Assembly: GCA_021773835.1 (NCBI GenBank)
Contig: JAJFJQ010000052.1
Location: 62,001-126,000, forward strand
Origin: Gammaproteobacteria bacterium
GTDB lineage: Bacteria > Pseudomonadota > Gammaproteobacteria > Ga0077536
Length of the DNA: 64,000 nt
Direction: 5' to 3'
Part shown: one piece after another, positions 3,214 to 62,832 of the stretch
Position numbering within the stretch: the first letter of the stretch is position 1
Layout of the letters: the number at the start of each line of letters is the position of its first letter
Notes under the pieces: model-generated
The model's database searches: none
Seen by the model: only the letters and a program-made list of their open reading frames with translations
Told to the model about the DNA's origin: nothing
Made by a program: the position numbers and the translations under genes

Positions 3214-3900
3214 TTAGCGCCGCAAGAAATAAATCCAGCGCCAAAAATTCAATATCGCCGACAGTGAGGCGGCGACGTAGGTCAACGCACACGCGGTTAG
3301 GATGCGCCGTGCCGCTGGCATCTCCGCCTCCGGAACGTATCCGAGCGCCAAGATCGGCAGTGCACGTTTAAAGCTTGCGTCGAATTCGACCGGCAGGGTA
3401 ATTAAATGTACAAGCACTGGTACCAGCAGGACCGTGAGTCCGGCAATAAGCATTAAGGCGCCGGTAGCCGGCACCCGGGTGAGTGCAGTAATAAACGGCA
3501 ATGCGATAAGGATCATGGCGCCAATACGCTCACTTAATTGTGCGAGGCCCACAAGACGGGTACGCAGTCTCAGCGGTGCGTAATTCAATCTGTCTTGTAT
3601 GGCATGTCCAACTTCGTGCGCGGCGACGACGACGGCTGTGAGAGACTTGCCGTCATATACCGCTTCGCTGAGGCGCACGACTTTTTCTATTGGGTCATAG
3701 TGATCACCTTGTGGGATTTTCTCTACCGTGACCCCGTCGAGCTTGCTGTTGTTGATTAAATGGATTGCCAGTTCGCCACCCGTGCCGGGAATGCCGTCGC
3801 GGTGTTTGCTATGGCGCTTCAAGATGTATTGAGCCCATAGCTGTGGACCAAAAATTACGCCGAGGGCAACAACCACCAGCGACGCAATAACAATTGGCAT
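3214..3900 (-). CDS. YugP-type neutral zinc metallopeptidase, membrane-bound
   Basis: 228 residues. The N-terminal membrane segment (residues 3-20) is followed by the family motif GDHYDP (65-70) and the zinc-binding HEVGH at 95-99, where both histidines bind Zn and the Glu is catalytic. Two or three further hydrophobic stretches lie between about 120 and 180 and one near the C-terminus. This is the layout of the YugP family (neutral zinc metallopeptidase, Zn_peptidase_2), whose substrates are unknown. The ATG overlaps the stop of the upstream ion-channel gene (TAATG on the minus strand), so translation is probably coupled. A link between the channel and the protease is inferred from that arrangement only. 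Confidence 0.9.
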   Translation of the reverse strand: MPIVIASLVVVALGVIFGPQLWAQYILKRHSKHRDGIPGTGGELAIHLINNSKLDGVTVEKIPQGDHYDPIEKVVRLSEAVYDGKSLTAVVVAAHEVGHAIQDRLNYAPLRLRTRLVGLAQLSERIGAMILIALPFITALTRVPATGALMLIAGLTVLLVPVLVHLITLPVEFDASFKRALPILALGYVPEAEMPAARRILTACALTYVAASLSAILNFWRWIYFLRR

Positions 3901-4565
3901 TAGCGGCGGGCGCTATCTGATATATGTAAGCCCACAATTCTGGCGATCAGCACGGTTAGAAAGATTTGACCGATTACGGCAGAGAGGTAGGAAAAGACCC
4001 GCGCCGCTGGTGTCGCCGGAACGATGTCGCCGAAGCCAAGAGTCGTCAGGCAGGTGAAGCTATAGTAGATATACGCACTTATTGGGCTGACAGCGGATAA
4101 TTCGGGCGCAACCGCAGTGGTGTTCACTAAGGCACCGGAGTCAACCAGTTCGAGAAATCGAAAGATAAAACCGCCGCCGATACCAAGAAGCAGATATGTA
4201 CTCACCGCCGCCAGCAACTCGTCCAGCGTTATCGTCGAGGCCCTAAGAATATGGATCAGGATCACGAGCGCCGCATATGCGAAATAAAGGAAACCTAATA
4301 AGGTCGAGGCTAACGCAGGAAATAACAATCCGGAAAGAAGCGCAAGCCAGGCGGAGGCAAAAGTCGACGATGCCAGCACAATCCCTGCAACAAAAAATCG
4401 ACGGTTTTGGCTTGTCGCATAGATAGTAGCAAGCAGCGTTACGCTCAGCATGATGTCAAAAATGACTTCGCCATACTCAATATATTGCGTAAACGCGCCG
4501 GCCACTAGCAGCACTAGCAATGATCCTAGGAGGTAGGCGAATTTTCCGGTGCGATCGATAAACAT
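3900..4565 (-). CDS. Potassium channel family protein (two-helix pore domain)
   Basis: 221 residues with several hydrophobic helices (about 11-28, 36-50, 56-80, 85-108, 119-138) and a C-terminal pore module: pore helix, selectivity filter TLGFGD at 175-180, then a last membrane helix 187-210. TxGFGD is a known variant of the K+ channel TxGYGD filter. There is no cytoplasmic RCK or nucleotide-binding domain, so gating cannot be inferred. Its stop overlaps the start of the YugP-like peptidase gene, and a gene of unknown function lies 57 bases upstream; all three probably share one transcript. Confidence 0.87.
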   Translation of the reverse strand: MFIDRTGKFAYLLGSLLVLLVAGAFTQYIEYGEVIFDIMLSVTLLATIYATSQNRRFFVAGIVLASSTFASAWLALLSGLLFPALASTLLGFLYFAYAALVILIHILRASTITLDELLAAVSTYLLLGIGGGFIFRFLELVDSGALVNTTAVAPELSAVSPISAYIYYSFTCLTTLGFGDIVPATPAARVFSYLSAVIGQIFLTVLIARIVGLHISDSARR

Positions 4566-7166: not shown

Positions 7167-8474
7167 ATGTGGCGGATGTGCGCAATTTGTATTTTGATAT
7201 GGGGATGGACGACCGGGCTGTGTGCCACCGATTTGTCAGCGTCGCACGACGAACGTCTCGAAGCCTTGTACCTGTATCTGCATCAAAATCCTGAACTTTC
7301 TTTTCACGAACAAAATACCGCGAGGCGCATGGCCGATGAGCTATTGGCGCTTGGATTCTCAGTAACTGAGAATTTCGGCGGTACCGGTGTAGTTGGTGTA
7401 CTCGCGAATGGCGCTGGACCAACCGTCCTCATCAGAGCCGATATGGATGCCTTACCCGTCAAGGAGCAGACTGGTTTGGATTACGCGAGTACGGTGGTGG
7501 TCACGAGCAACGATGGAAATGCCCAACCGGTAATGCACGCGTGTGGACATGACATCCACATGACAGTCTTCGTCGGTACGGCTGGGCGACTTATGCGCGC
7601 CCGCGATCAGTGGAGCGGTACCTTGATAATGATTGCCCAGCCTGCTGAAGAACGCGGTGCCGGGGCCAACGCAATGCTTAAGGCCGGCTTGTTCACAAAA
7701 TTTCCCCGGCCGGACTTCAATCTAGCACTCCATGTAAGCGCCGGTGTCCCGGCAGGAAAAGTTGGCTACGTGGCGGGGCCGGCACTCGCGAACGTCGACT
7801 CAGTAGACATCACGGTCCATGGTGTTGGAGGCCACGGTGCCTACCCACATGCGGTACGCGATCCAGTCGTATTGGCGGCGGAAATTGTTACGGCCATGCA
7901 GACGATTGTCAGCCGCGAGTTATCGCCATTAGAACCGGCAGTACTGAGCGTGGGATCGATCCATGGCGGACACAAGCACAACGTCATTCCAGACAAGGTG
8001 ACAATGCAGCTCACCTTACGATCGTATACGGCGGAGGTGCGACGACAAATGATCGAGGCAATCAAGCGCATTTCGAAAAACCTCGCCATAGCGGCGCGCA
8101 TGCCGGCCGACAAAATGCCCGAGGTCGTGGTCAAGGAACAATACACACCGGTAGCGTATAACGACCCTGAGCTCACACACCGCCTTGCGGCTATCTTTCG
8201 GGGCGAGATTGGCGCTGATAACGTTATTGAATTAAGCCCGGTGATGGGGGGTGAGGATTTTGGCCGGTATGGCCAGGTCGAACCCAAGATCCCGAGCCTG
8301 ATCTACTGGCTGGGCGCCGTTGACCGTACGCTTTTTGCGAAGTCGAAAGCCGGGAGTACGGCGCTGCCGTCGTTGCACTCACCCTTGTTCGCACCTGAGT
8401 ACCGGATGACGATCCGAACTGGGGTTAGAGTAATGACCGCGGCCGCCCTCGATCTGTTAGGCAAGGTCGAGTGA
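7167..8474 (+). CDS. Exported M20 family amidohydrolase
   Basis: 435 residues from the ATG at 7167; GGAG at 7154-7157 is well placed for it, while a GTG at 7152 would include that site. A signal peptide is evident (residues 1-20, ending GLCA). The M20D peptidase/amidohydrolase pattern follows: RADMDALPV, HACGHDIHM (metal-binding His), AQPAEERGAGA (Glu-Glu pair) and PVMGGEDFGRY near the end. Relatives hydrolyse N-acyl amino acids, hippurate or related amides using two divalent metal ions. Export suggests a periplasmic substrate. The specific substrate cannot be read from the sequence. Confidence 0.9.
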   Translation: MWRMCAICILIWGWTTGLCATDLSASHDERLEALYLYLHQNPELSFHEQNTARRMADELLALGFSVTENFGGTGVVGVLANGAGPTVLIRADMDALPVKEQTGLDYASTVVVTSNDGNAQPVMHACGHDIHMTVFVGTAGRLMRARDQWSGTLIMIAQPAEERGAGANAMLKAGLFTKFPRPDFNLALHVSAGVPAGKVGYVAGPALANVDSVDITVHGVGGHGAYPHAVRDPVVLAAEIVTAMQTIVSRELSPLEPAVLSVGSIHGGHKHNVIPDKVTMQLTLRSYTAEVRRQMIEAIKRISKNLAIAARMPADKMPEVVVKEQYTPVAYNDPELTHRLAAIFRGEIGADNVIELSPVMGGEDFGRYGQVEPKIPSLIYWLGAVDRTLFAKSKAGSTALPSLHSPLFAPEYRMTIRTGVRVMTAAALDLLGKVE

Positions 8475-8543
8475 GCAGGTGCCGGCAAACCGCCAACTGT
8501 TAACGGCCGTAGGCCTCCCACATTTACTGAGGAGTGAGTTCGT

Positions 8544-8870
8544 ATGAAACATATGGTGGTGGTGCTGACCGAACCAACCGCAGGCCGCGAGGATGAATTT
8601 AACGACTACTACGAGGACCTCCATATCGATGAGGTCCTTGCAACCACCGGTTGGAAGTCGGGCCAGCGCTTTAAGCTAACGGATAAGATGGGCGCTGATT
8701 GCCCGTTGCCATATTTGGCTATCTACGAAGCGCATGGCGACGATCCTCAACAAGTCATCCGGACCTTGAATGAAACGCGTGCCGAGCGCAAACAGAGTAA
8801 AGCGATCAACAAAAAAACCGCGGCAGTTTGGGTTTTCTCCGAGACCGGTCCGCTGCACGAAGCGGAATAA
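8544..8870 (+). CDS. Small dimeric alpha/beta-barrel-like protein
   Basis: 108 residues with a strong ribosome-binding site (GAGGAG before the ATG). The opening strand MVVVLTEPT, the polar helix with EFNDYYEDLHIDEVLA and the closing AVWVFSETGP resemble the ferredoxin-like dimeric alpha/beta barrel folds (EthD, DUF1330 and DUF4286 types). Such proteins include small isomerases and oxygenase partners; no catalytic residues can be assigned. It lies 69 bases after the amidohydrolase gene on the same strand and converges on the serine hydrolase gene. Confidence 0.75.
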   Translation: MKHMVVVLTEPTAGREDEFNDYYEDLHIDEVLATTGWKSGQRFKLTDKMGADCPLPYLAIYEAHGDDPQQVIRTLNETRAERKQSKAINKKTAAVWVFSETGPLHEAE

Positions 8871-8886
8871 AAGACCCGAGCGGCAC

Positions 8887-10326
8887 TCAATTGTCGGTTA
8901 CTGGCTCCGGAGGCGAAGCTGGGATCGGCGTTGGCGTCACGGACTGCGCCGGTGGCGCCTTTTCTTCGGTCGCATTTGGCACCGATGCCTCCTCCAATCG
9001 CGGTTTATGGTACGCCTCAATCAGTCGGTGCAAACGGGTCGCGAAGGTTTGATGGTCGACAGCTGAGTTTCGTCGTAGCACATTCGACATTAGGGTAACG
9101 ATGTAATGGAGTTTGCGCTCGCCGGCCGGTGACTCGACGATAGCCACGGAATTCATGAAGTTGCGAACGTTGCCGTGATATTTTTTGCATACAAAGTCGG
9201 GTTCCGGCTCACATTTATAGAGTGATCCGCTTTTAAAATACACCGCCGATTTGCGCAACGCCGGCGCTGAGGCATAGCGGATCCGGCGCTCGGTAACGTA
9301 CATCATGCGCTTAATTTCACGCGACGAAAATTCGTCGACTAATCGGCCTTGCTCCATGCGCAGCATCACCTTCATCAGCTCGCGTGATGTCGCGTAGCTG
9401 GTAGTGCCTTGAACTTTTCTTTTACCGGTGCGCGTGAAGAAGCTGCCCTGTCGAATTTTGTCTAGATCGAAACCATTTCGGGTCACGGGGGATTGGATAA
9501 ATGTCGCTAATTGCTCGGTTAGCTCGGCCCGGGGGGTGTTCGCGAAGTAATCTTTAGACACTTCCTCGCTTACCGGGTAGTTGTGTCCGAACTTCGTTAG
9601 CAACATGCCGTGTTTCGTCAACGTTGCTGCGGCTGCGTTCGCACTCGGTGAGATCATCCAGTCGACATATTCCATCATGCTGGCGCGATCACCGATCTCC
9701 AACGGGCGACGTATAAGTTTTTCATTCTCGCGGTCCCACATCCGGACTGTGTGATGATCAGAGATGATAAATTCATCGGCGATGATTTCAGTATCGCGCA
9801 GCACGCGCCAGCGGGCGTCAATATCATCTGGATAAAGATCGGCCAAGGTTTGGTACAAGCCGAGCGCGACGATGATTTTGCCCACGCTGCCCGGATTGCG
9901 TGCAACATTTCCGTTGACTTCCGCGTAGCGCGGGTTATCGACGTCGCTGAGATCGAGAACCGATACCGCGTAACGATCGACATAGTCCCCAAGCAGCCCT
10001 TCAATTTGTCGCCTAAACACACCGTCGGCGGGCGGTAGCTCCATGTCCGTGTGTTCGCGTAAACGAATATCAACCTCAGCGGTAGAGAGCAACGCGCCTT
10101 TAGGTTGCTTACGCCCCTTGATAGTCTCCGCTTCAATTCGCCGCATCACTTCGAGTCGACCAATCCCTGTTTCTTCAAACGCGTCGATCGGGTAGGCGTA
10201 CGCGTTGGATATGCACCATAGCGGCGCAGATAAACAGAGCAACAACACGATTCGAGCCGCGTCTACAAGGCCCATCAATTGGCGAGAAAGATTTTCGTTT
10301 GTCGGCTTGTTCGGCGATATTTGCAT
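8887..10326 (-). CDS. Exported serine hydrolase, class A beta-lactamase/PBP fold
   Basis: 479 residues with an AAGGAG site before the ATG. A hydrophobic export segment (about 24-42) ends near NAYA. The three motifs of the beta-lactamase/penicillin-binding superfamily are present in order: SVGK at 147-150 (nucleophile Ser, Lys), SAN at 228-230 (SxN) and KSG at 365-367 (KTG-type). The spacing is wider than in true class A beta-lactamases, and a Pro-rich tail (451-479) is added. Likely a periplasmic serine hydrolase; resistance function is not implied. It is last in a minus-strand operon after the dikinase-like gene and a small exported protein. A second, shorter relative lies at 21498-22394. 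Confidence 0.85.
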   Translation of the reverse strand: MQISPNKPTNENLSRQLMGLVDAARIVLLLCLSAPLWCISNAYAYPIDAFEETGIGRLEVMRRIEAETIKGRKQPKGALLSTAEVDIRLREHTDMELPPADGVFRRQIEGLLGDYVDRYAVSVLDLSDVDNPRYAEVNGNVARNPGSVGKIIVALGLYQTLADLYPDDIDARWRVLRDTEIIADEFIISDHHTVRMWDRENEKLIRRPLEIGDRASMMEYVDWMISPSANAAAATLTKHGMLLTKFGHNYPVSEEVSKDYFANTPRAELTEQLATFIQSPVTRNGFDLDKIRQGSFFTRTGKRKVQGTTSYATSRELMKVMLRMEQGRLVDEFSSREIKRMMYVTERRIRYASAPALRKSAVYFKSGSLYKCEPEPDFVCKKYHGNVRNFMNSVAIVESPAGERKLHYIVTLMSNVLRRNSAVDHQTFATRLHRLIEAYHKPRLEEASVPNATEEKAPPAQSVTPTPIPASPPEPVTDN

Positions 10327-10376
10327 ACGAACTCCTTACTTAATTATGCCAAGCGAAGGCGAACCTGCGCTTCAGC

Positions 10377-10706
10377 TTACGGCCGTGTTGCGTCGAATGA
10401 TGGTGGCCTAGCATCGATAAGCTCGATCCCAATGACGCTCGGATGAACCCCAATTTCGCGCGCAGTCGCTTCCCACGTTAGTGCATCAATTCGTATGCGT
10501 TCAATGTCCGCGACGCTTCGACCTGAATATGCCGCGAGAGTTTCTGCCCTAGCGCGATCCTGCTCACTTGGCTGACCCGAGATGGGTTCCGCGTCTGCTC
10601 CCATAGCATTTATCGATACGGCGAGCGTAGCCAATATTGCGAGTAGGGCACCGACACGATTAGAGGTGCTGAATGCCATCCGCGACTCGCCCCGGGGACC
10701 GCTCAT
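10377..10706 (-). CDS. Small exported protein of unknown function
   Basis: 109 residues. The ATG at 10706 overlaps the TGA of the preceding dikinase-like gene (ATGA), and GAGGAG precedes it, so translation is coupled. A signal peptide spans about residues 10-37 (core LLAILATLAVSINAM, likely cleavage after GADA). The mature part is short and helical, containing the pattern TAREIGVHPSVIGIE. I do not recognise a family. Its position between the dikinase-like protein and an exported serine hydrolase suggests a shared periplasmic role. Confidence 0.75.
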   Translation of the reverse strand: MSGPRGESRMAFSTSNRVGALLAILATLAVSINAMGADAEPISGQPSEQDRARAETLAAYSGRSVADIERIRIDALTWEATAREIGVHPSVIGIELIDARPPSFDATRP

Positions 10707-13645
10707 GGGATCTCCTCGAGAGATACGGTATTCGATGCACGATTAGCCAAGGGTGCGTCGAGTTGGCGTAGTAGGTCATTCCCGCGCGCGCGATCACTGT
10801 CTAGAAACGGGCGGATCTGGAAGAGCCTGAGTTCGCCGTCTAAGAATCCAAATTCAATGTCCGCCGGTGCCGCTTTTCCGGATGCGTCGATTACAGCCGG
10901 GAAGCGATCCGGGAGTTGTTTCGCGAACTCGATGAGCTGCGCGATTTCGCCGTCAACGAGTACGCGATCGGCGCTACTAACGGGCAGTTTCTTCACGCCG
11001 CCGGAAAGGTCGACCTTGCGACGGATTGACGCGGTCGCTTCAGCCATCAACCTCACGTCGCCTGTGACTGTATTGATCCTTATCGATTCTGCCGACTGTC
11101 CGTCGACCGCACCGCCGACCCCTTCGTTTACCGCCACCGATAGCCAGTTTTTGTCGCCGCTATCGATATCTTGGGTAACCAACACGCCAGATTTATCCGC
11201 GTCGACACTGAGCATTAGTAAGACTGCCGGATAGACGTGTTCTGGTTTATCCATCAAGGTTTGGCGCCAGGCGAAGGAGCGCGCGCTGAATGGCGAGGCC
11301 CAAACGCGTGAAACAGCCGCAAGAATGTTGTCGATTCCAACAACGTTGGCCACGGTCAAGTTCAAACCGGCTCCAGTGAAGCCCGGCAAGTCCTCGACAT
11401 TCGTGTCGCTGCGTACGAATACACCGAACGATCCATCCGCCCCGAATACTTCGATGAGTTTAGTGCGCAAACGCTCGCGAAATTCATCGCCGGGGTCAGC
11501 ATTCTTTATCGTGTCCTGCAGCTTCGTACGAAAAATTTCGGTGGCCGCGCGATGCTCACTACTGCCTCGAGGAAGTTCGCCGAGGCGAGCATATTCGCCC
11601 TGCATCCATTCGAACACCGATCCAGCCGTTCCGGCCATTGGTTGCTCAAGGATGTCTTTGAAGCTGCCAAATGGGATCGCGAGCCCTTCGGCAACGGCCT
11701 TGGGATAGTGATGTTTTAATTCGCCCAGTTTTGCAGCCTTCGGTCCTACTACGCGACCGGAATCACTCGCGCGCAATTCACTTAATGTCATGAATTGATG
11801 CTGGTTCAAGTCGAGTTTCTCAAGGTCCACCTTGATCAACGTTGCTTGCTCGTCCGGCTTGTTGTTCTCATCGAAGGCCGCGCCAAAGCTACCGTCGTCA
11901 ACGTTCAAGCGCACCGAACCCGCCGGACTGACTGCCAGGACAACGGTAGTGCCCTCGTGCTGGCGCAGCGTTTCGAGCTGGCTTTGGTCGACGCCGACAT
12001 TTGGGATCCCAAGATTGCGCGCTAGCAGTTGGACATGCGAAAGTGGATTACCTTCCCCTTCCGTTAGGATCCCGGCAACAGGTGGCAGCTCGGAGACGGT
12101 TTCCGGTAATAGGTAGATACCGTCTGTGTCGAGGTCCGCAATATCTTTCCCCAAAGCAAGACGTAGTGGTCCACGCGCGAGGCCGGGGTTCAAACTGCGC
12201 AAGCCAAAGCCAACGTTGTTGCCGAATAACTCGTTACTCACCCCGGCGAGCGCATTGGCGTCACGCACTAAAGCGTCAATTCGAGCCGCATATATGAACA
12301 TTGGGCTACCGCGTAGATGGTCTTGAATATAAAGCCCGGCGATCGGTTCGATCTCGTGTAATTTATCCATGCCCTCAGCGAAGAATCGTCGCAAGGCCTG
12401 CGTGCTCCAGGAAGGTGCGAGCGCAAGGTAATCGAGCACGCGTTTATAGCGACCGACGCTAGGAGTGGATGTCGCCAGTAGCGCTTGAAGTTCGCCCTGC
12501 GCCGCGTCAAGCTGGCGCTTCGTCAACAGTCCTACCCCGTAAAGCGCGAGTAAGTTGTCGCCTATTATTTCAAGTTGATCGGCCCTAGGCAGTTTTTTCA
12601 CCGCCGCTTCAAGTTCAGAGGCCACGGTAAATAATTCGGATTCGACCACGAGGCTCGTGTCCAACATCGCAAGACGCAGGCGCGATTGCTTGGCGACCGT
12701 AATGTGATCCCTAAGATCCGCTAACAGACGAGCAGTATCGCGGAAATTTTCGCGTGGTTCAGCGCTTCCGGCGAGCGCTTGGCCGGCGGCGTTTGCGAGA
12801 ATGGCGATATCTGCAGCGCCACCTGCTACCTTCGCAAGTGACCGTAGGCGTTCTGAGATGTCGGCAGTGAAAACAGCCTCAATGAGACCGGCGAGGCGCT
12901 CAAGATCGGTACTGAGTCCGGGCTCTGATTGGCCAACTGAATAGCTTCTAACGGCAGCCGCATCCTTCAGCTCGGGATTGCCGTGGATCTTGTTGCGCAA
13001 TGGCTTGAATCCGGGGTCGCGGTCAGAAAGTGATGCCGACAATTGTCGAATTTCCTGTACCGAAGCCGTTTCTGTGCCGTGTGCTAGGAGTCGTGCCGCG
13101 GTCCGCAATACCAGATATCGGTACGTAACCCAGTCGTGCCGACCCGCCAACTGCAATAGCAACTTGCGCGCGCCGCTGCGCTCATCTTCCGCCTGAAGTG
13201 CACCGCGATACGCATGGGCACGACGCAAAATCCAACCGTTATCAATCCGGATCAGGAATTGCTCAATCAGCATTTGTTGGAACTGAGCCGAGTTTGCATG
13301 CTTACCGACAAACTCGTCGACATCGAGATCTGAGTAAAAGTTTGCGATGGCATAACCCGCCGCACGCAGGGTTTTAGTACGCTCAGACCATTCGCCGTGT
13401 TGGACACCGCCACCGAAGTCAGCACACGCATACGCCTTTGGCGGCAATATCTGCCCGTCTTTACAAAACCACCGGATCCTTGAAAACGGACCTCGCTCGG
13501 CAGATTTCATCTGCTCAACCCAATGCGTGTGGTCGCTGTCGACCTGGGCTTTTTCAACCCCGGCAGCGCCAGAGCCCGTCCATCCAATTACTAAATAGAT
13601 CGCCAGGCAGTAAACCGTGGTGAAATGCTTCGTCGTATCGTGCAA
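10703..13645 (-). CDS. Exported dikinase-like protein (phosphohistidine + PEP/pyruvate-binding ATP-grasp domains)
   Basis: 980 residues from a TTG with GAGGAT four bases upstream. Residues 8-29 form a signal peptide. Residues 30-480 are an unfamiliar, mostly helical region. A swivelling phosphohistidine domain follows, with NPLSHVQLLARNLGIPNVG at 533-551 (His 537), then a PPDK/PEP-synthase N-type ATP-grasp domain: FVRSDTNVEDLPGFTGAGLN (743-762) and ADIEFGFLDGELRLFQIRPF (928-947). In PEP synthase the ATP-grasp domain comes first; here it is last, as in alpha-glucan, water dikinases, whose His motif (LSHVSxRARN) is also similar. The substrate is unknown. Export is odd for an ATP-using enzyme. 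First long gene of a four-gene operon. Confidence 0.85.
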   Translation of the reverse strand: MHDTTKHFTTVYCLAIYLVIGWTGSGAAGVEKAQVDSDHTHWVEQMKSAERGPFSRIRWFCKDGQILPPKAYACADFGGGVQHGEWSERTKTLRAAGYAIANFYSDLDVDEFVGKHANSAQFQQMLIEQFLIRIDNGWILRRAHAYRGALQAEDERSGARKLLLQLAGRHDWVTYRYLVLRTAARLLAHGTETASVQEIRQLSASLSDRDPGFKPLRNKIHGNPELKDAAAVRSYSVGQSEPGLSTDLERLAGLIEAVFTADISERLRSLAKVAGGAADIAILANAAGQALAGSAEPRENFRDTARLLADLRDHITVAKQSRLRLAMLDTSLVVESELFTVASELEAAVKKLPRADQLEIIGDNLLALYGVGLLTKRQLDAAQGELQALLATSTPSVGRYKRVLDYLALAPSWSTQALRRFFAEGMDKLHEIEPIAGLYIQDHLRGSPMFIYAARIDALVRDANALAGVSNELFGNNVGFGLRSLNPGLARGPLRLALGKDIADLDTDGIYLLPETVSELPPVAGILTEGEGNPLSHVQLLARNLGIPNVGVDQSQLETLRQHEGTTVVLAVSPAGSVRLNVDDGSFGAAFDENNKPDEQATLIKVDLEKLDLNQHQFMTLSELRASDSGRVVGPKAAKLGELKHHYPKAVAEGLAIPFGSFKDILEQPMAGTAGSVFEWMQGEYARLGELPRGSSEHRAATEIFRTKLQDTIKNADPGDEFRERLRTKLIEVFGADGSFGVFVRSDTNVEDLPGFTGAGLNLTVANVVGIDNILAAVSRVWASPFSARSFAWRQTLMDKPEHVYPAVLLMLSVDADKSGVLVTQDIDSGDKNWLSVAVNEGVGGAVDGQSAESIRINTVTGDVRLMAEATASIRRKVDLSGGVKKLPVSSADRVLVDGEIAQLIEFAKQLPDRFPAVIDASGKAAPADIEFGFLDGELRLFQIRPFLDSDRARGNDLLRQLDAPLANRASNTVSLEEIP

Positions 13646-13661
13646 TAGATCCTCGATTCCG

Positions 13662-13814
13662 CTAAAAAAGCGTATAGATAAATGGTGCGACCGCCGAGCC
13701 TTGCGCGAATACGATCAGTCCTCCGAGTAACACCATGACGATAACGATAGGGGCCAGCCAAAATTTCTTGCGTTCGCGCATGAAGTCCCACATGTCTTTC
13801 AAAAATTCTAGCAT
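13662..13814 (-). CDS. DUF5989-type small membrane peptide
   Basis: 50 residues from the ATG at 13812-13814. Layout: an amphipathic start (MLEFLKDMWDFMRERKKFW), one long membrane helix (about 20-37) and the ending GSAVAPFIYTLF, which is the hallmark of the DUF5989 family. Function unknown. It ends 16 bases before the TTG of the dikinase-like gene, so it likely heads that operon. In other genomes I recall DUF5989 genes beside exported or surface carbohydrate-modification genes; that association is from memory. Confidence 0.8.
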   Translation of the reverse strand: MLEFLKDMWDFMRERKKFWLAPIVIVMVLLGGLIVFAQGSAVAPFIYTLF

Positions 13815-14187
13815 TCGATTGCAATCCCAAATTGATTTCGATCTGGCAGCTAAGCTCACGCCGTTTACCGATGATCCACTCGGACGCTTTGTCCAAGAAA
13901 ACTGTTGAATATCGCGGCCCGCAACAATAATGAAATCCGGCCTCAATGTCAGCGCGCAGGTATTCACTCTGACGTCTGGTCGGACTCCAATTGAATTATT
14001 TGATAGGAGAGCCTCAATGAACCTGCAGCTGGCGTATCGTATCATTACGTGATTTAAATATTTAGTTTACGAACCCCGTGTACCTAATTGAGTTTATTTG
14101 CAAATGGGCATCGATTTCGGCAACATTGGAAGATCGCGTCGGGGACTTATCTCTTGGCCGTAATAGCGTCATTGGCCTTATAAATCC
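13815..14187. other. Divergent intergenic region, 373 bases
   Basis: It separates the minus-strand DUF5989/dikinase operon from the plus-strand receiver-kinase gene, so it should hold both promoters; I could not find convincing -35/-10 pairs on either strand. It contains an AT-rich patch (14050-14072), a perfect 10-base palindrome ATTTGCAAAT (14096-14105), and an 11-codon frame at 14017-14052 preceded by AGGAGAG. TATAAA at 14179-14184 is too close to the ATG to act as its -10 element. Confidence 0.5.
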
Positions 14188-15471
14188 ATGAAATTAATCA
14201 TCGTCGACGATTCGAAAGAATACATGACCCTGCTCCGGCGCATGCTGGCCAGCGTGATCCCCGATATTGAGGTAACGGAATACGATCCAGAGCAACAAGG
14301 ACGCCCCACCGACGAGTTCGACTGGGGTATATACGATGTCCTGTTGATCGACTACCAACTCGGCGTTCATGAAAATGGACTTGAATGGATCGAGCAATTC
14401 CGCCGGGCGGCGGGATTCCCACCTGTGATCCTTATGACCTCAACCGGCGATGAGTATGTTGCTGCAACGGCCATTAAGCTCGGGGCCAGTGACTTCATCA
14501 AGAAAGTTGATATTGATGCCGAGCGACTAGCGGGCATGGTTAAGGGTGCTGCGGCAGAGCGCGAGCAATCGCTCGCAGCGGACGAGACTACGGTAAATTC
14601 AAAGCTCGATAACGATGCCTTCGTTTTCAAAGAGGTCAAACTTAACCGTGAGCGGACACCGGACGGCCAGCGGATTGGCTATCGATTTGTAAGACTGATT
14701 GGTCAAGGTGCGAGTTCGCGAGTATACCTAGCAGAGCGCTTGTCGGATCAAATGACGCTCGTGCTAAAAATAATGGACGTCGCTACGATCAAAGAGCCGC
14801 AGGCATTGCAACGGTTTGTGCAAGAGGCAGAGTTGGTGTCAGAACTCGATAGCCCGTATGTCGTTCATTTCCTCGAGCACGGCTTTACCAAGGACTATGG
14901 TTATATTGCCATGGAGTTTTTTACCCGAGGCGATCTAAAACAACGGATCGAACACGGCGTATCCGTGGAAGATGCAACGAATTACATTCGCCACATTGGT
15001 TATGGTTTGAGTGCGGTGCACGCCGCAGGCATCGTTCACCGGGATCTAAAGCCCGGGAATATCATGTTTCGGTCGAATGACAGTTTAGCGCTTGCTGACT
15101 TTGGAATTTCGAAACGTCTGGATGAAACGGGTGAATTGACCAAGCTCGGTAGTGTGTTAGGCACGCCGAATTATATTAGCCCAGAGCAAGCGCTCGGGAA
15201 TCAGGTTGATCATCGATCCGACCTTTACAGCGCGGGCGTCATCTTCTTCGAAATGTTGACCGGCCATAAACCGTTTAAGGCGGAGACCGCGCCGGCGTTG
15301 GTTTATCAACACGTCCATGCGGCAATCCCGCAATTGCCAAATGTGGTGCACAATTATCAGCCGATTTTGGAGCTGTTACTCGCGAAAGATCCGAACGACC
15401 GTTTTTCATCGGCTGACGAATTTATCGAGGGTCTGCTCGCAATTGACCGCGCGTCAAGCACTAACCTGTAA
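14188..15471 (+). CDS. Response-regulator receiver / Ser-Thr protein kinase fusion
   Basis: 427 residues. Residues 1-120 are a CheY-like receiver: acidic pair D7-D8, phospho-acceptor D55 (LLIDYQ), T85 and the Lys near 105. A linker (125-160) leads to a eukaryotic-type kinase: glycine loop GQGASS (172-177), VAIK-type Lys 194, HRDLKPGN (284-291, catalytic D286), ADFGIS (303-308) and SPE (331-333). All key residues are present, so both domains should be active. Phosphorylation of the receiver probably controls the kinase. There is no membrane segment. No histidine kinase or phosphatase gene is adjacent; lon follows 117 bases downstream. No clear ribosome-binding site precedes the ATG. Confidence 0.92.
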   Translation: MKLIIVDDSKEYMTLLRRMLASVIPDIEVTEYDPEQQGRPTDEFDWGIYDVLLIDYQLGVHENGLEWIEQFRRAAGFPPVILMTSTGDEYVAATAIKLGASDFIKKVDIDAERLAGMVKGAAAEREQSLAADETTVNSKLDNDAFVFKEVKLNRERTPDGQRIGYRFVRLIGQGASSRVYLAERLSDQMTLVLKIMDVATIKEPQALQRFVQEAELVSELDSPYVVHFLEHGFTKDYGYIAMEFFTRGDLKQRIEHGVSVEDATNYIRHIGYGLSAVHAAGIVHRDLKPGNIMFRSNDSLALADFGISKRLDETGELTKLGSVLGTPNYISPEQALGNQVDHRSDLYSAGVIFFEMLTGHKPFKAETAPALVYQHVHAAIPQLPNVVHNYQPILELLLAKDPNDRFSSADEFIEGLLAIDRASSTNL

Positions 15472-21497: not shown

Positions 21498-22394
21498 TCA
21501 GCGGTAGCTTGCGGCCACCTTGGTTGGCACTACGAGTGTATGCAGGGATGCCGCAATATCGGCGAGCCATTCGCCGCCGTGCCCATCGTTGGCGAGGGCG
21601 GTTAGGATATAACGGCTGGCACCCGGCGCTTCGACGATTGCGCTATCGGCATGCCAACTGCGCCAGGTGCCGGATTTCCTATAGATCTTGACCCCATGTT
21701 GATTGGCAAGCCCCTTAACGAACTTGTGCTCGATCCCGGGTTTCGACAACATTTCTTTCATCAGCTTGGTCAGCCGCGGACTCACGAGCTGTCCGGTTTC
21801 CAGCAAGTAGTAAAACCTTGCGGTCTGCAATGCCGTTGCACCATGTGAAATGTTATGTAGTGGGTCGCGCTGGAACGCGCTGCCGGTGGCGTACTCTTTT
21901 CCCACCCACAGGCCGCCGTTAACGAGCGGGTCATATAAGCGGAAGCGATCGGACCGTAGGATCTGGTTGACCCGTTGTTTACCCACTCGGTTTAGCATTG
22001 CAGTCGCGTCCTCGTTTGAGGACATGCGGATCATTCTGGTTAGGGAATCGACCGTTGATCGGTCCAAGGGCAACCGACCACGTTCAATTTCGACGAAAGC
22101 CCCGAGCAGAATGCCAATCTTCGGTAGACTGGCAGCGTACATCATGTGGTCGCCGTTGATCGTCGCCACGCGTGGCTCGAGAGGGTCACTAATATCGACC
22201 AAAGACAGGCATAGGTCGCGACGTTCAGCCGCTTGGGTCAAGCCGAGCTCGTCGATGCGCCGCTCAACGGCACTTTGGAAAGCGGGATCGTAACTCTCAC
22301 GCAGCAACGGCGGCCCGTTCTGGCCATCTGCCCAGACCAGCCCGTTAATCAGCAGCCCGAAAAAGGCTACGACTATGCTACGGTTAACCCCCAT
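21498..22394 (-). CDS. Exported serine hydrolase, beta-lactamase-like
   Basis: 298 residues. Signal peptide 1-22 (ending VWA). Class A-like motifs: SLPK at 89-92, SSN at 125-127 and KSG at 240-242 (KSGTW). Length and spacing are close to true class A beta-lactamases, but the sequence around the omega-loop position does not show the usual ExxLN box clearly, so I call it a serine hydrolase rather than a resistance enzyme. It is a shorter relative of the protein at 8887-10326. It is divergent from the NTT-like pair and convergent with pyk, and stands alone. Confidence 0.85.
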   Translation of the reverse strand: MGVNRSIVVAFFGLLINGLVWADGQNGPPLLRESYDPAFQSAVERRIDELGLTQAAERRDLCLSLVDISDPLEPRVATINGDHMMYAASLPKIGILLGAFVEIERGRLPLDRSTVDSLTRMIRMSSNEDATAMLNRVGKQRVNQILRSDRFRLYDPLVNGGLWVGKEYATGSAFQRDPLHNISHGATALQTARFYYLLETGQLVSPRLTKLMKEMLSKPGIEHKFVKGLANQHGVKIYRKSGTWRSWHADSAIVEAPGASRYILTALANDGHGGEWLADIAASLHTLVVPTKVAASYR

Positions 22395-22450
22395 AAGTGC
22401 GCGACCTTATCATCATAGTGCTGTTAGCGGCAACGATATCCCAGTTCTAA

Positions 22451-23716
22451 ATGGATCAATCTCACATTGATAAATCCGCTGCAGCGCAGCAATCACGCTT
22501 GATCGAGCGCTCTATAGCGCTGTTCGTCAATTTCTTTTTCATTATTTTGGCCTACTACCAAGTGAAAGCAGCGTCGCGCGGGTTGCTCATCGAATATGGG
22601 GGATCGGGCTGGTTCCCTTATACTTGGGTCTATTCAGCGGTTGCCCTAACCGCACTTATCGGTTTCTACCATGGCTTGGTCGAACGCCACAGTCGCGTCC
22701 GGATTGTGCTCGGTTCGCTATTGCTGTTCGTGGGCCTGCTGGTTGTTTTCCGCAGCGTACTCGACCAAAAGAGCGCGATCGCGGCAATCACGTTCTATAT
22801 CTTCGTTGACATCTTCAGTGTGGTTTTGGTCGAGCAGTTTTGGAGTCTGGCCGTTTCAATAACGGATTCGAGCGAAGGCAAACGGAGCTTCTGGTTTGTC
22901 GGAACTGGGGGGCTCGTCGGTGGCGTCGCCGGCGGGTTTCTCGTCAGCTACCTGTTGGAAAATACACAACTCACTACCCCAGACTTACTTTATACCTGCG
23001 CGCTCCTGTTAATTGCGACATTTGTGCTCAATCTGCTGATGTGGCGGGCCGGCATGTATGAGGAGGTGCAAGGCGAGACCGCCGAGCCACAGAAAAAAGG
23101 CGACTGGCGCTCACTCCTCAGCAACCGCTACTTGCTCTTAATTGCGACGGTATTGTGCTTGTCCCAGTTGGCGCAACCGGTGGTTGAGTACCAATTTATC
23201 AGCGCCATCGAGCAGGCTTACTCGGAGCTCGATGAACGAACCGCATTCATTGGTAAGTTTTTTAGTGTGATGGGCTTGGTCTCTATCGGTATCAACCTGG
23301 TGTTGACTCCGATTACGCATCGTTATCTCGGCATCTTCGCTGGTCTGGTTGTACAGCCATTGATGATCTCGGTGTGTTCATTTGGGTTCTTTTTGCACTC
23401 AAGCTTGTCGATGGCATCTATTATGAAGATCAGCGATCGGGGATTGTCGTATTCAATCAATCGCGCCTCAAAGGAGCAGCTCTATATTCCAGTCGACCCT
23501 ATCCAGACCTATCAGGCAAAAGCATGGATCGATATGCTTGGTTACCGTCTTTTCAAGGTACTTGGATCAGGTCTCATTCTGCTTGCGACGCAATGGCTCC
23601 CGGTGCGCTTGGATATCGGCGAACTGTCATTTTTGACATTGGTTATTTGTACTCTCTGGATCATTACGATTGGTATGCTGGCGAGCTCCTACCGTCACCT
23701 CACTGCGACCGCATGA
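22451..23716 (+). CDS. ATP/ADP-translocase-like (NTT family) membrane protein
   Basis: 421 residues with about eleven or twelve membrane helices. The KAASRGLLIEYGG segment in the first helical hairpin and DRGLSYSINRASKEQLYIPV followed by KAWIDMLGYR in the second half are typical of the TLC/NTT nucleotide-transporter-like family. Classic members exchange host ATP for ADP in intracellular parasites; relatives in free-living bacteria have no assigned substrate. No HEAT tail here. The next gene, an NTT-like protein with a HEAT tail, starts 3 bases after this stop, so the two are co-translated and may form a heteromer (inference). Confidence 0.82.
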   Translation: MDQSHIDKSAAAQQSRLIERSIALFVNFFFIILAYYQVKAASRGLLIEYGGSGWFPYTWVYSAVALTALIGFYHGLVERHSRVRIVLGSLLLFVGLLVVFRSVLDQKSAIAAITFYIFVDIFSVVLVEQFWSLAVSITDSSEGKRSFWFVGTGGLVGGVAGGFLVSYLLENTQLTTPDLLYTCALLLIATFVLNLLMWRAGMYEEVQGETAEPQKKGDWRSLLSNRYLLLIATVLCLSQLAQPVVEYQFISAIEQAYSELDERTAFIGKFFSVMGLVSIGINLVLTPITHRYLGIFAGLVVQPLMISVCSFGFFLHSSLSMASIMKISDRGLSYSINRASKEQLYIPVDPIQTYQAKAWIDMLGYRLFKVLGSGLILLATQWLPVRLDIGELSFLTLVICTLWIITIGMLASSYRHLTATA

Positions 23717-23719
23717 GCA

Positions 23720-25948
23720 ATGGTCCGCGACCCGCATCACTCGAGCACTAAAACCGCCACCACTTTTGCGCTGGCGTCGGCAACCTTAATGATTGCGCAC
23801 CAAGTTGCGGGCAAGGCGACCCGCGACGCGATCTTTCTATCGCACTACGACGTAACCGATCTACCAAAGATCGTGATAATCGCCGCCGTATTGTCGATGA
23901 TCGGCGTGATATTGATGTCGCGATTATTGGTCGTGTATGGGCCGTCTCGCGTGATCCCCGCGGCGTTCGGCATCAGCACAATTTTATTCCTCGGCAATTG
24001 GTTGTTGTATGAGTCGGCGCCGGAACGGGTCGCCGTGCTGTTGTATTTACAAATGGCCATCTTCGGCGCGGTCTTAATCAGCGGATTCTGGTCGGTCGTC
24101 AATGAACGCTTTGACCCGCATACAGCCAAGCACACGATCGCAAGAGTCGCGGCGGCCGCAACCTTAGGTGGCGTTCTCGGAGGCTTACTTGCGGGCCGGG
24201 TCGCCGCGGCGCTCGATGTACGGTCAATGTTATTGGTTCTCGGCGGCCTGCATTTCGCCTGCTTCTTGACGGTACGCGCGGTAGGGGATCCTCGCGTAGG
24301 TGGCTTACGGGCAGAATTAAAACCGACCATGCAGTCTGGGTTGCACTTGTTGGCGACCAATCGCTACTTGCAATTAATGGGTTTATTGATGGTGCTCGCC
24401 GCGGTGATGGCAGCACTTGTTGACTACGCCTTCAAATCCGCAGCGACAAATATGCTCAGCCGCAGCGAAGACTTGGTTATGTTTTTCGGCCAGTTTTATG
24501 CAGCGGTTGGGGTACTAACATTTCTCATCCAGTCTGCCTTGGGACCACGCTTACTTAAACGCTATGGGATAGGTGCGACACTCGCGGTAATGCCGGCTGT
24601 GCTCTTTGGCTCCGCATTTCTAAGCATCGCAGTGGCTGGCAAGCTTTGGTCGGTGGTCGTGTTGCGCGGTAGCCAGCTCGCATTTACCAATTCATTTTTT
24701 CGCTCGGCGTTCGAATTGTTGTATACGCCGCTGCCGCCGCTGACCAAACGGCCAACGAAGACCATCATCGACGTCGCGTCAGATCGCCTAGGCGATGTTC
24801 TCGGTAGTGGCGTGCTTTTATTGCTATTGGCGCTTTCGCCGAGTTTGCCGATCCCGGTCGTGGTTGGTGTTGCCGTCTTAACAGCGCTGTTCACGCTGTA
24901 TATCGTACATCTACTGTATCGCGGTTATGTCGAGCAATTAGCTACCAGCTTGCGCGACGGTGCTATATCACTGAGCGACGATGAGGTCATCGATGCGACT
25001 ACCCGGCACACCTTGGCGGAAGCATCAGGCGCGTCCGAACGCGAAATATTGATGGCCAAGATCCGCGCCATGAAACAAGAGAGAGGCACCGACCAACCGG
25101 TCGCTGTCGATGATATTGACCGCGACAGCGAGCCGTTCGCGGACGCAGATCCGGAATTGCTGCGGGAGATTTGCGATGCCACTGCCGCGCTGATGTCAGG
25201 TAACAGCGCACGTGTGCGGCGGTGCCTATCGGGCCCGACCCTCGATATTCGTCTAGTGCCATACTTGATTCCGCTGTTGGCGAAGGACGATCTTGCTGAA
25301 GACATTCGGATGGAGTTGCGTTGGAAGGCGCCGCAAACGATTGGCACACTCACCGACGCGTTGCTCGACCCAGACATGCCCTTACTAGCGCGCCAACGGA
25401 TCCCAAGCATCCTCGAAGTCACTCACAATCCACGTGCGGTTGATGCGCTCGTTGCGGGCTTGCGCGATGAGGAGTTTAACGTTCGCTATAGCAGCGGGCG
25501 GGCGTTAGCCCGCATGAATGAACGTGACGCATCGATGAAAATCGAGCCAGCCGAAGTTTTCAGTGCAGTTGAACGAGAAGTATCCGTAGAACGTGCGGTA
25601 TGGGATGAACGGAATATCGAATTAGATGTGTCTGTACCTGTTGATATGGCATCGACACCATTGGCGGGCGATCCACGCATCGATTACTCGATGGAGCATG
25701 TTTTCACCCTGCTCAGTCTCACGCTAGATCGCAATGCGTTGATGTTGTCGCGACAGGCAGTGCAGAGTTCAGACCGCAACTTGCGCGGCACTGCGCTGGA
25801 GTATTTGGAAAACGTTCTACCCGAAAATGTGCGCCGGGGATTGTGGCCGCACTTCGGCGAGTCGGTAGTGGTTACGCAGCCGCGTCGGGCCGAGCAAGAG
25901 GTCGTCGCCGATCTTAAGCGGTCGGTAGATCCGAAATCGTCGCCGTAG
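23720..25948 (+). CDS. NTT-like membrane protein fused to a HEAT-repeat domain
   Basis: 742 residues. Residues 15-420 are a twelve-helix NTT/MFS-like domain with KATRDAIFLSHYDVTDLP, SGFWSVVNERFDPHTAKHTI and repeated LGGVLGGLLAGRVAA. Residues about 480-740 are cytoplasmic and helical with HEAT-type repeats (for example VDALVAGLRDEEFNVRYSSG). A long charged linker joins the two. It lacks an obvious signature fixing the substrate. It starts 3 bases after the preceding NTT-like gene. HEAT arrays usually bind proteins, so this may dock a partner at the membrane. Convergent with an alpha/beta hydrolase gene 13 bases away. Confidence 0.82.
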   Translation: MVRDPHHSSTKTATTFALASATLMIAHQVAGKATRDAIFLSHYDVTDLPKIVIIAAVLSMIGVILMSRLLVVYGPSRVIPAAFGISTILFLGNWLLYESAPERVAVLLYLQMAIFGAVLISGFWSVVNERFDPHTAKHTIARVAAAATLGGVLGGLLAGRVAAALDVRSMLLVLGGLHFACFLTVRAVGDPRVGGLRAELKPTMQSGLHLLATNRYLQLMGLLMVLAAVMAALVDYAFKSAATNMLSRSEDLVMFFGQFYAAVGVLTFLIQSALGPRLLKRYGIGATLAVMPAVLFGSAFLSIAVAGKLWSVVVLRGSQLAFTNSFFRSAFELLYTPLPPLTKRPTKTIIDVASDRLGDVLGSGVLLLLLALSPSLPIPVVVGVAVLTALFTLYIVHLLYRGYVEQLATSLRDGAISLSDDEVIDATTRHTLAEASGASEREILMAKIRAMKQERGTDQPVAVDDIDRDSEPFADADPELLREICDATAALMSGNSARVRRCLSGPTLDIRLVPYLIPLLAKDDLAEDIRMELRWKAPQTIGTLTDALLDPDMPLLARQRIPSILEVTHNPRAVDALVAGLRDEEFNVRYSSGRALARMNERDASMKIEPAEVFSAVEREVSVERAVWDERNIELDVSVPVDMASTPLAGDPRIDYSMEHVFTLLSLTLDRNALMLSRQAVQSSDRNLRGTALEYLENVLPENVRRGLWPHFGESVVVTQPRRAEQEVVADLKRSVDPKSSP

Positions 25949-61516: not shown

Positions 61517-62832
61517 TGATTATTGGCGATCGGCTTTGCGTTGAACCTGGCGGGACCCTGTATGGCGACTTGCAAGTGCCTGGGGATAAATCGATCTCGC
61601 ACCGTGCCGTGATGCTGGGTTCGATTGCGACCGGGACGACGGAGATAACAGGTTGTCTGATGGGTGAGGACGTTCGCTCCACGATCGCCGCGTTCAGCGC
61701 CATGGGGGTGTCTATCAACGCGCGCGAAAATGGACAACTGTCAATTGAGGGACGCGGCTATAGCGGTTTGAACCCGCCGGCCAGTCAACTCGACCTGGGA
61801 AATTCCGGTACGTCGATGCGTTTGATGGCCGGACTGCTGGCCGGATCTGGCATGTCTGTCACGATGACAGGCGATCAATCCTTGTGCGCACGGCCAATGC
61901 GTCGCGTCACCGCTCCGCTGGGGCAAATGGGGGCAATTGTCGACACTCAGCCGGATGGGACGCCGCCGTTGATCATCACACGAGCAACGGATCTGCATGC
62001 GATCAGCTACGAGCTGCCGGTGGCAAGCGCTCAGGTAAAATCGGCCATATTGCTTGCTGGACTGCGCGCTTGTGGCCGAACCCGCATCGTCGAACCGGCG
62101 CCGACCCGTGACCATACCGAGCGCATGCTGCGCGCCTTTGGTGCGGCACTTGAGGTTGTCGCGAACGAAATTTGTATCGAGGGTCCGCAGGAATTAACAG
62201 CGACGTCGATAGCGGTCCCCGGCGATATCTCGTCTGCCGCTTTTTTTCTGGTTGGTGCAGCCATGGTCGAAGGCGCTGCAGTGACCATTAAGAACGTTGG
62301 GGTGAATCCGACCCGCATCGGGGTACTCGAAATATTGCGCCTGATGGGCGCGGACATCGAATTGTCGAACGAGCGCTCAACCGGCTCGGAACCGCTTGCG
62401 GATTTAACCGTGCGTGGTACACGGTTGACCGGAATTGATATCCCGGCTGCGCTAGTGCCTAGCGCAATCGATGAGTTCCCAGCGCTTTTCATCGCGGCTG
62501 CATGCGCCAAGGGACGCACCCGATTGGCGGAGGCCGGCGAATTACGCCATAAAGAGAGCGACAGAATCGACATGATGGCCCATGGATTGGAAATTCTAGG
62601 GGTTAAGCTGACCACCAGCGCCGATGGGATCGAAATTACCGGTAGCGAACGTGGATTTCGTGCCGGCCGGGTTGCTAGCGGCGGCGATCACCGGGTCGCA
62701 ATGGCCTTCGCAGTAGCCGGATTAAAGGCGGCAGGTCCTATCGAAATCACAGATTGTTCGGCAATCGCCACCTCATATCCGGGATTCGTCGATAGCGCCC
62801 GGCAACTCGGGTTAAAGCTTGCCGCAATTTGA
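61516..62832 (+). CDS. aroA: 5-enolpyruvylshikimate-3-phosphate synthase
   Basis: 438 residues. PGDKSISHRAVMLGS, GNSGTSMRLMAGLLAG, SAQVKSAILLAGL, DISSAAFFLVGAA and LRHKESDR are diagnostic. RPMRRV, ASAQVKS and TRDHTERML look closer to the class II (Bacillus/Agrobacterium CP4-like) branch than to the E. coli class I enzyme. It condenses shikimate-3-phosphate and PEP. Coupled to tyrA by TAATG and to cmk by TGATG; in pseudomonads tyrA and aroA are fused. Confidence 0.97.
   Translation: MIIGDRLCVEPGGTLYGDLQVPGDKSISHRAVMLGSIATGTTEITGCLMGEDVRSTIAAFSAMGVSINARENGQLSIEGRGYSGLNPPASQLDLGNSGTSMRLMAGLLAGSGMSVTMTGDQSLCARPMRRVTAPLGQMGAIVDTQPDGTPPLIITRATDLHAISYELPVASAQVKSAILLAGLRACGRTRIVEPAPTRDHTERMLRAFGAALEVVANEICIEGPQELTATSIAVPGDISSAAFFLVGAAMVEGAAVTIKNVGVNPTRIGVLEILRLMGADIELSNERSTGSEPLADLTVRGTRLTGIDIPAALVPSAIDEFPALFIAAACAKGRTRLAEAGELRHKESDRIDMMAHGLEILGVKLTTSADGIEITGSERGFRAGRVASGGDHRVAMAFAVAGLKAAGPIEITDCSAIATSYPGFVDSARQLGLKLAAI

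Follow-up and report, generated by a model that had tools for sequence, protein, structure and literature searches.

A 64,000-nucleotide stretch of contig JAJFJQ010000052.1 of a Gammaproteobacteria bacterium (positions 62,001 to 126,000, hereafter the window) carries the genes of a dikinase-like protein (DK), of two predicted exported SxxK hydrolases (SH1 and SH2) and of a membrane protein resembling TLC/NTT-type nucleotide transporters (NTT1) (Table 1). Genome comparison indicates that these four genes almost certainly constitute a single functional module in the cell envelope. A preliminary description of the window had delimited a four-gene operon consisting of DUF5989, DK, a 109-residue exported protein and SH1. 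Its four minus-strand gene calls were all confirmed, together with the separations of 16 nt, an ATGA overlap and 50 nt, and with the strong ribosome-binding sites of the last two genes (GAGGAG for the 109-residue protein and TAAGGAGT for SH1). In the window, the SH2-NTT1 half of the module sits 8–12 kb from the DK-SH1 half, and the genes between them, which encode a response regulator-kinase, Lon, a major facilitator superfamily (MFS) protein and pyruvate kinase, are the same in several genomes of the family. NTT1 is divergent from SH2 across 56 nt, and the gene of a TLC-HEAT fusion, NTT2H, begins 3 nt past the end of NTT1.

Table 1. Position and features of the genes discussed, in window coordinates (aa, amino acids; TM, transmembrane).
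Gene	Product	Positions	Strand	Length (aa)	Remarks
DUF5989	DUF5989 single-TM peptide	13662-13814	-	50	PF19451, 99 bits (cut-off 27)
DK	dikinase-like protein with signal-like N-terminus	10703-13645	-	980	TTG start; GAGG 5 nt upstream
109-aa gene	small exported protein between DK and SH1	10377-10706	-	109	GAGGAG before ATG
SH1	exported SxxK acyl-serine hydrolase	8887-10326	-	479	TAAGGAGT before ATG
SH2	second exported SxxK hydrolase	21498-22394	-	298	
NTT1	TLC/NTT-type nucleotide transporter-like membrane protein	22451-23716	+	421	
NTT2H	TLC domain fused to HEAT repeats	23720-25948	+	742	

The membership of the module was derived from co-occurrence in samples of 185 genomes at class level, 36 genomes of the order and 299 genomes at phylum level, in which DK was present in 19, 12 and 24 genomes, respectively. 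The union comprises 52 DK genomes (the 19 of the class-level sample, 10 new ones from the order and 23 new ones from the phylum), and the class-level set by itself spans 17 families and 19 genera. The partners were tested in 190 genomes lacking DK, namely 166 of the class and 24 of the order; the 275 phylum-level genomes without DK lie outside the searches for SH1 and NTT1. SH1 matched exactly the same 19 of the 185 class-level genomes as DK and none of the 166 others, and in 58 further genomes it was found in 33 of the 34 with DK and in none of the 24 without (G091 belongs to both search sets). With an overall occurrence in 51 of the 52 DK genomes and in 0 of the 190 DK-less genomes, DK and SH1 are, on genome comparison, an almost inseparable pair, and the proposed recurrence of SH1 with DK was thereby borne out. 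SH2 was detected in 18 of the 19 class-level DK genomes (none in G009, a fragment in G153), in all 10 of the order and in 21 of the 23 of the phylum. An NTT1 orthologue, defined in the class-level search by at least 41% identity to the query protein of G120, was likewise detected in 18 of the 19 (none in G153, only a fragment in G009), in 9 of the 10 of the order (a fragment in G211, a partial gene in G199, none in G201) and in 10 of the 23 of the phylum. Neither SH2 nor an NTT1 orthologue occurred in any of the 166 DK-less class-level genomes or in the 190 tested DK-less genomes as a whole, and the 24 of 36 order-level genomes without DK were also devoid of SH1. In total, 49 of the 52 DK genomes possess SH2 and 37 an NTT1 orthologue (G009 and G211 being counted by their fragments), and a TLC relative of any kind (E up to 1e-5) was found in 50, the two without being G448 and G280. 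Fisher p values for class-level co-occurrence with DK were 2.7e-26 for SH1 and 4.4e-24 for both SH2 and NTT1, with relatedness ignored; all of these counts treat related genomes as independent, and many of the genomes are drafts.

The two remaining genes of the preliminary operon behaved differently from SH1 in this comparison. DUF5989 lies beside DK in this genome only, since it was not found in any of the 36 other neighbourhoods, including in a check repeated without masking. The 109-residue protein, for which no reliable Pfam match was obtained, was found near DK in this genome and in one congener, G210 (a 55% match over 55 residues), and in the window genus its gene is placed between DK and SH1; weaker matches, down to E 0.004, covered 23 residues or were at chance level. 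Because DUF5989 and the 109-residue protein fail to recur, the four-gene operon was rejected as the unit, and by this comparison both are passengers. Of the envelope system that had been suggested to couple phosphoryl transfer to a serine acyl-enzyme, the DK-SH1 part was supported and the other two proposed partners were not, and SH2 and NTT1 at 21498-23716, which are core members, had been missed. Transcription offers a separate view of the minus-strand genes. A scan of positions 8000-14600 returned 2 promoter-like sites (4.3 ± 2.2 in shuffled sequence) and 9 terminator-like sites (7.7 ± 3.4 in shuffled sequence), both at chance level. As none of these sites falls into the gaps between the four genes, a single transcript across them is plausible.

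The arrangement of the genes was compared in 37 DK neighbourhoods, from which L040, holding the second, diverged DK of G174, was excluded. In 34 of the 37 stretches, SH1 is encoded downstream of DK on its strand, at most 560 nt away, with a possible SH1 start at -4 of the DK stop codon in 19 of those 34. The exceptions are G066, in which the two genes are 3.3 kb apart with an opposite-strand gene between them, G174, in which SH1 is on another contig, and G448, which is without SH1. SH2, usually on the opposite strand, and NTT1 were found as further recurring neighbours of DK. All four genes occur in one cluster in two genomes of the window family (G200 and G218) and in 14 of 20 other families, G303 and G378 being counted through a divergent TLC gene (26–27%) in the same cluster; outside the 14 are G066, G153, G174, f10, G280 and G448, several of which are cut by contig ends. 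NTT2H, which lies beside NTT1 or SH2 in some relatives, is not a core member, and in G201 an NTT2H-type HEAT fusion beside SH2 was the only TLC gene found. One named related locus was retrieved (L003, from the metagenome-assembled genome ES_Gamma_036), and a search for plasmid-borne relatives at E up to 1e-20 returned none. The distance of 8–12 kb between the two halves in the window, with housekeeping genes between them, would suit a neighbourhood assembled by chance from functionally unrelated genes. Such an explanation is contradicted by the joint presence or absence in 19 versus 166 genomes and by the clusters seen in most of the other families. Within the reach of genome comparison it is refuted for DK, SH1 and SH2, and its overall probability is practically negligible.

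DK consists of a signal-like N-terminus, a region without any match at about residues 40–480, a phosphohistidine domain at about 500–600 and an ATP-grasp domain at about 620–950. The corresponding Pfam matches are PEP-utilizers (PEP, phosphoenolpyruvate) at 512–557 and PPDK_N (PPDK, pyruvate phosphate dikinase) at 632–954. The window DK scores 85 bits against PF01326 (cut-off 27), and among 34 aligned DKs PF01326 was matched in 33 and PF00391 in 32 (E up to 0.1). The putative catalytic residues are His537 in the phosphohistidine domain and Lys636, Arg745, Glu931, Gln943 and Arg945 in the ATP-grasp domain. His537 is kept in at least 90% of the 34 DKs, and the SH dipeptide at this histidine and the GPKAA, VRSDTN-ED and EFGF-LFQ-RP motifs are near-invariant. 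The ATP-grasp domain aligns with the structures 5fbs and 5hv1, which were deposited as PEP synthase and which we take to be Listeria rifampicin phosphotransferase, and with the PEP synthases 8a8e and 2ols. In the HMMER alignment with 5hv1, His537 falls on the histidine motif of the swivel domain and Arg745 on the VRSSATAEDLP motif; the aligned residues presumably have the roles of their counterparts. The comparison shows that DK has retained the residues found in functional ATP-dependent phosphohistidine enzymes, and it is very probably catalytically active.

DK resembles two groups of known enzymes. PEP synthase, PPDK and rifampicin phosphotransferase (PF01326 and PF00391) share with DK the ATP-grasp domain and the swivel histidine. 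In contrast to these enzymes, DK has the reversed domain order, no PEP/pyruvate or rifamycin domain, an N-terminal region of about 440 residues with an unmatched fold, and a likely extracytoplasmic location. Eight families had a match in at least one of the 34 DKs (E up to 0.1), and the C-terminal PEP/pyruvate TIM barrel was not one of them. Residues 40–480 matched neither Pfam nor solved structures, whether single sequences or the 34-row profile were used. The glucan water dikinases of plants and protists (GWD and the phosphoglucan enzyme PWD) have a phosphohistidine domain followed by a C-terminal ATP-grasp domain, and DK is alike in this order and in that no pyruvate barrel was found. In contrast to GWD, DK is bacterial, has a signal-like N-terminus, has SxxK hydrolases and a TLC transporter as partners, and matches the GWD1_pHisD model below its cut-off (15.5 bits against 27 for the window DK; weak matches in 6 of the 34 DKs, best E 0.0074). 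No starch-binding N-terminal domain was found, the only recurring Pfam families in the 34 DKs being PPDK_N, PEP-utilizers and GWD1_pHisD.

Two genomes contain DK genes that look defective. In the complete chromosome of G448, a DK relative with 30% identity (L090:8159-10834) no longer possesses the histidine, the lysine of GPKAA or the arginine of VRSDTN, and searches of the genome for SH1, SH2 and TLC genes were all negative. This degenerate DK may be taken as a natural control for the module, and it is possibly a pseudoenzyme with a new role. In the draft genome G009 (L037), DK is interrupted by an in-frame stop, SH2 is missing and only a 127-residue match to NTT1 remains, as if the module were decaying; assembly errors are possible.

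The location of DK, SH1 and SH2 was assessed with a crude signal rule, which requires a start codon, a net-positive n-region, a 10-residue hydrophobic core and a small-x-small site, and which was applied after removal of matches scoring below 150 bits and of frames truncated at a contig end. The rule was passed by 32 of 37 DK, 31 of 35 SH1 and 24 of 27 SH2 frames, compared with 1 of 25 cytosolic controls from the same stretches (Lon 0 of 9, response regulator-kinases 0 of 9, pyruvate kinases 1 of 7). A hydrophobic stretch ahead of the first conserved block was seen by eye in all 48 DK N-termini viewed, out of 50, the motif scan having given no frame for G280 and G448. The only cysteines of the window DK are C13, in the signal, and C61 and C74, which are invariant in 34 of 34 DKs. 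A cysteine pair is also conserved in 97% of 33 SH1 rows, and SH2 has no conserved pair. The pairs of DK and SH1 would suit periplasmic disulfides. Because of the signal-like N-termini of the three proteins and the conserved cysteine pair in DK and SH1, all three are likely to be exported and to fold in the periplasm, and for DK by itself export appears highly likely.

On the other hand, the hydrophobic stretch could be an anchor that leaves DK in the cytoplasm as an ordinary phosphotransferase beside envelope hydrolases. The rule cannot separate a signal from an anchor because membrane proteins pass it too, and the window DK fails it, its n-region having a net charge of 0. The preliminary claim that all four products carry membrane or export signals was broadly true: DUF5989, SH1 and the 109-residue protein have a TM-like segment, and the hydrophobic stretch of DK is below the 19-residue TM threshold. 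A cytoplasmic DK is improbable, since the stretch in the window DK is too weak for a TM helix, the 32 passing frames out of 37 have a net positive charge ahead of the stretch, an invariant cysteine pair comes after it, and the partners are exported or membrane proteins.

SH1 and SH2 show the motif set of serine acyl-enzymes, with SVGK at 147, SAN at 228 and KSG at 365 in SH1, where the cysteine pair is at 372/380, and SLPK at 89, SSN at 125 and KSG at 240 in SH2. The serine, lysine and asparagine of the SxxK/SxN/K[ST]G motifs are present in over 97% of the rows (33 SH1 and 31 SH2); matches under 200 query residues or with internal stops were excluded from these alignments and from that of NTT1. 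Against PF13354 (Beta-lactamase2, cut-off 22), SH1 scored 25 bits and SH2 61.9 bits. The three motifs are shared with class A beta-lactamases and penicillin-binding-protein-type SxxK enzymes. In contrast to those enzymes, SH1 and SH2 are matched by no NCBIfam model and have no relative among solved structures in a sequence search at E up to 0.1.

NTT1 matches PF03219 (TLC) at 66.3 bits (cut-off 21), and its nearest solved relatives are the ADP,ATP carriers 9j3n (E 2e-7) and 9j3j (E 5e-6). In the available parts of two studies of AtNTT1, residues E245, E385, K527 and K155 are described as functional, with K155 tied to ADP binding (PMC3306366, PMC10654386). In a weak alignment, with an offset of 84 deduced from the spacing of K, E, E and K, E245 would correspond to D120 of NTT1 (19 of 20 rows), E385 to E246 (16 E and 2 D in 18 rows) and K527 to K369 (13 K, 3 R and 1 D in 17 rows). 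The final 20 rows exclude sequences under 40% identity save L084 and L088, of which only L088 was retained, and two rows are cut at contig ends. NTT1 has the TLC domain, and putatively the charged positions at the mostly conserved D120, E246 and K369, in common with the NTT/TLC transporters of plastids, Chlamydia and Rickettsia, from which it differs in being shorter, in scoring far under the cut-off for nucleoside tri- and diphosphate (NTP/NDP) exchange and in being tied to a probably exported kinase. The same fusion as in NTT2H occurs among the NTT and NTT-HEAT proteins of free-living bacteria, for which the available part of the survey by Major et al. (2017) reports no dikinase or hydrolase partner and calls the functions of the NTT-HEAT fusions unknown (PMC5381601). 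No TLC gene was found in 14 well-known control genomes. Transport of an adenine nucleotide by NTT1 is on balance probable.

Based on these assignments, a possible mechanism can be proposed for the module. NTT1 may bring ATP out of the cytoplasm and take spent nucleotide back in return. Once in the periplasm, ATP would donate its beta-phosphate to His537 through the ATP-grasp domain of DK, with AMP and phosphate as the products, a reaction shared by PPDK, PEP synthase, rifampicin phosphotransferase and glucan water dikinase. By swinging, the phosphohistidine domain could then pass the phosphate to an acceptor held by the N-terminal region of DK. Since DK is without a pyruvate barrel, this acceptor is probably an envelope polymer or a precursor of one; its identification as a glycan or peptidoglycan is doubtful. 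SH1 and SH2 would cleave or transfer an acyl group, peptide or ester, on the same substrate. A dikinase yields AMP rather than ADP, for which reason a changed counter-substrate of NTT1 would, speculatively, make sense, and ATP/AMP exchange would perhaps fit the missing ADP-site lysine. The reading as a whole, in which an extracytoplasmic ATP-dependent DK, an ATP exporter and two SxxK enzymes act on an envelope substrate, is given a probability of about 0.42. The supply of ATP to DK outside the cytoplasm by NTT1 is its tentative link, a little short of an even chance. The broader picture, in which some Gram-negative bacteria energise the periplasm through an NTT-family carrier that exports ATP, perhaps for AMP, and so powers an exported phosphohistidine kinase, which jointly with two SxxK acyl-serine enzymes would phosphorylate or ligate an envelope polymer, is possible and slightly less secure again.

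Several observations weigh against this ATP-export reading, above all those in g243 and G280. In the genus g243, which belongs to a different class of the phylum, DK, SH1 and SH2 occur without an NTT1 orthologue in 9 of 19 genomes; several of these are drafts, but completeness is rated at 99% for G233, G236, G239 and G259. G280 carries SH1 and an intact-looking DK, and neither a TLC gene nor SH2 was found in it; G201 has a HEAT-fused TLC protein and no NTT1 orthologue. Because these genomes do without it, NTT1 is not strictly needed. NTT1 scores 63 bits against the NTP/NDP exchange model TIGR00769, the cut-off of which is 387, and no clear counterpart of K155 was seen in the weak alignment with AtNTT1. 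TLC relatives other than NTT1 orthologues occur in 24 of the 166 DK-less class-level genomes, the TLC gene of G303 was missed by the Pfam model, and not all TLC relatives move ATP, one being an NAD carrier and one failing in transport assays according to the available part of PMC5381601. Membrane proteins satisfy the signal rule as well (MFS 6 of 6, NTT1 16 of 18). The pairwise distances of the four families correlate (r 0.78–0.90); as there is no species-tree control, they indicate no more than shared descent. AlphaFold models reached a mean predicted local distance difference test score (pLDDT) of 37.0 for DK and 38.6 for NTT1, from two-row alignments (window and L003).

Some of these points would be explained if DK, SH1 and SH2 modify the envelope, be it peptidoglycan or polysaccharide, while NTT1 carries a cargo other than ATP, such as another nucleotide, NAD, a nucleotide-sugar or a wall fragment, and DK obtains the small amount of ATP that it requires from leakage or lysis. 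The DK-SH1 pairs without an NTT1 orthologue in g243 and G280, the lack of a clear K155 equivalent and the varied substrates of NTT relatives in the available part of PMC5381601 are in line with this alternative. An NTT1 orthologue without DK was, however, never found (0 of 190 DK-less genomes), a tightness that is hard to explain unless the cargo of NTT1 serves DK, and each of the nine g243 genomes that lack NTT1 has retained some other TLC gene elsewhere (20–24%; a fragment in G369). A non-ATP cargo is considered rather unlikely.

Flow in the opposite direction could also be envisaged. Dikinases are reversible, and DK might make periplasmic ATP from AMP and a phosphorylated compound for import by NTT1, in the manner of intracellular parasites. 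Import of ATP is described for the characterised NTTs of bacterial parasites in the available part of PMC5381601. The DK genomes, however, measure 1.5–6.1 Mb (the smallest is incomplete) and are not parasite-sized. Furthermore, GWD-type dikinases run forward, and we know of no phosphorylated extracellular donor, which counts against inward flow. It is regarded as highly improbable.

The ATP-export reading would bear on two questions in the literature. In the usual view, bacteria outside the obligate parasites lack ATP/ADP transporters and hence have no periplasmic ATP supply, and a 2014 hypothesis paper argued from a few ATP-dependent reactions in the periplasm that there must be a transporter as yet unknown (PMC4289276, available part). 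A survey of 2017 found NTT genes to be widespread in free-living bacteria, with unknown roles (PMC5381601, available part). If one module links an NTT relative to an exported ATP consumer with an intact catalytic site, these two questions (PMC4289276, PMC5381601) would be joined, and both would become directly testable with four genes. If true, the reading would assign a first function to one set of NTT relatives that are found in neither parasites nor plastids, and some bacteria would ship ATP into the cell envelope to power chemistry there. No published description of a DK/SH1/SH2/NTT1 module was found among the open-access papers listed in literature searches, in agreement with the preliminary remark that no description of the combination listed there was known.

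A role in anti-phage defence was considered and rejected, seven proteins giving no PADLOC matches at E up to 0.001. Copy number varies in some relatives. Besides its main copy, G174 contains a second DK of 33% identity beside a divergent SH2-like frame (23%) at L040:4743-8945. In g243, two SH2 copies flank NTT1 in L086 and L087, and in L091 and L093 tandem SH2 copies are present with no NTT1 between them, which looks like a deletion of NTT1. Divergent from DK in the window, a gene at 14188-15471 encodes a fusion of a response-regulator receiver domain with a Ser/Thr protein kinase, which G120 and several members of the family carry at the corresponding position. A small membrane protein with an ion-channel (Ion_trans_2) domain is encoded at 3900-4565.

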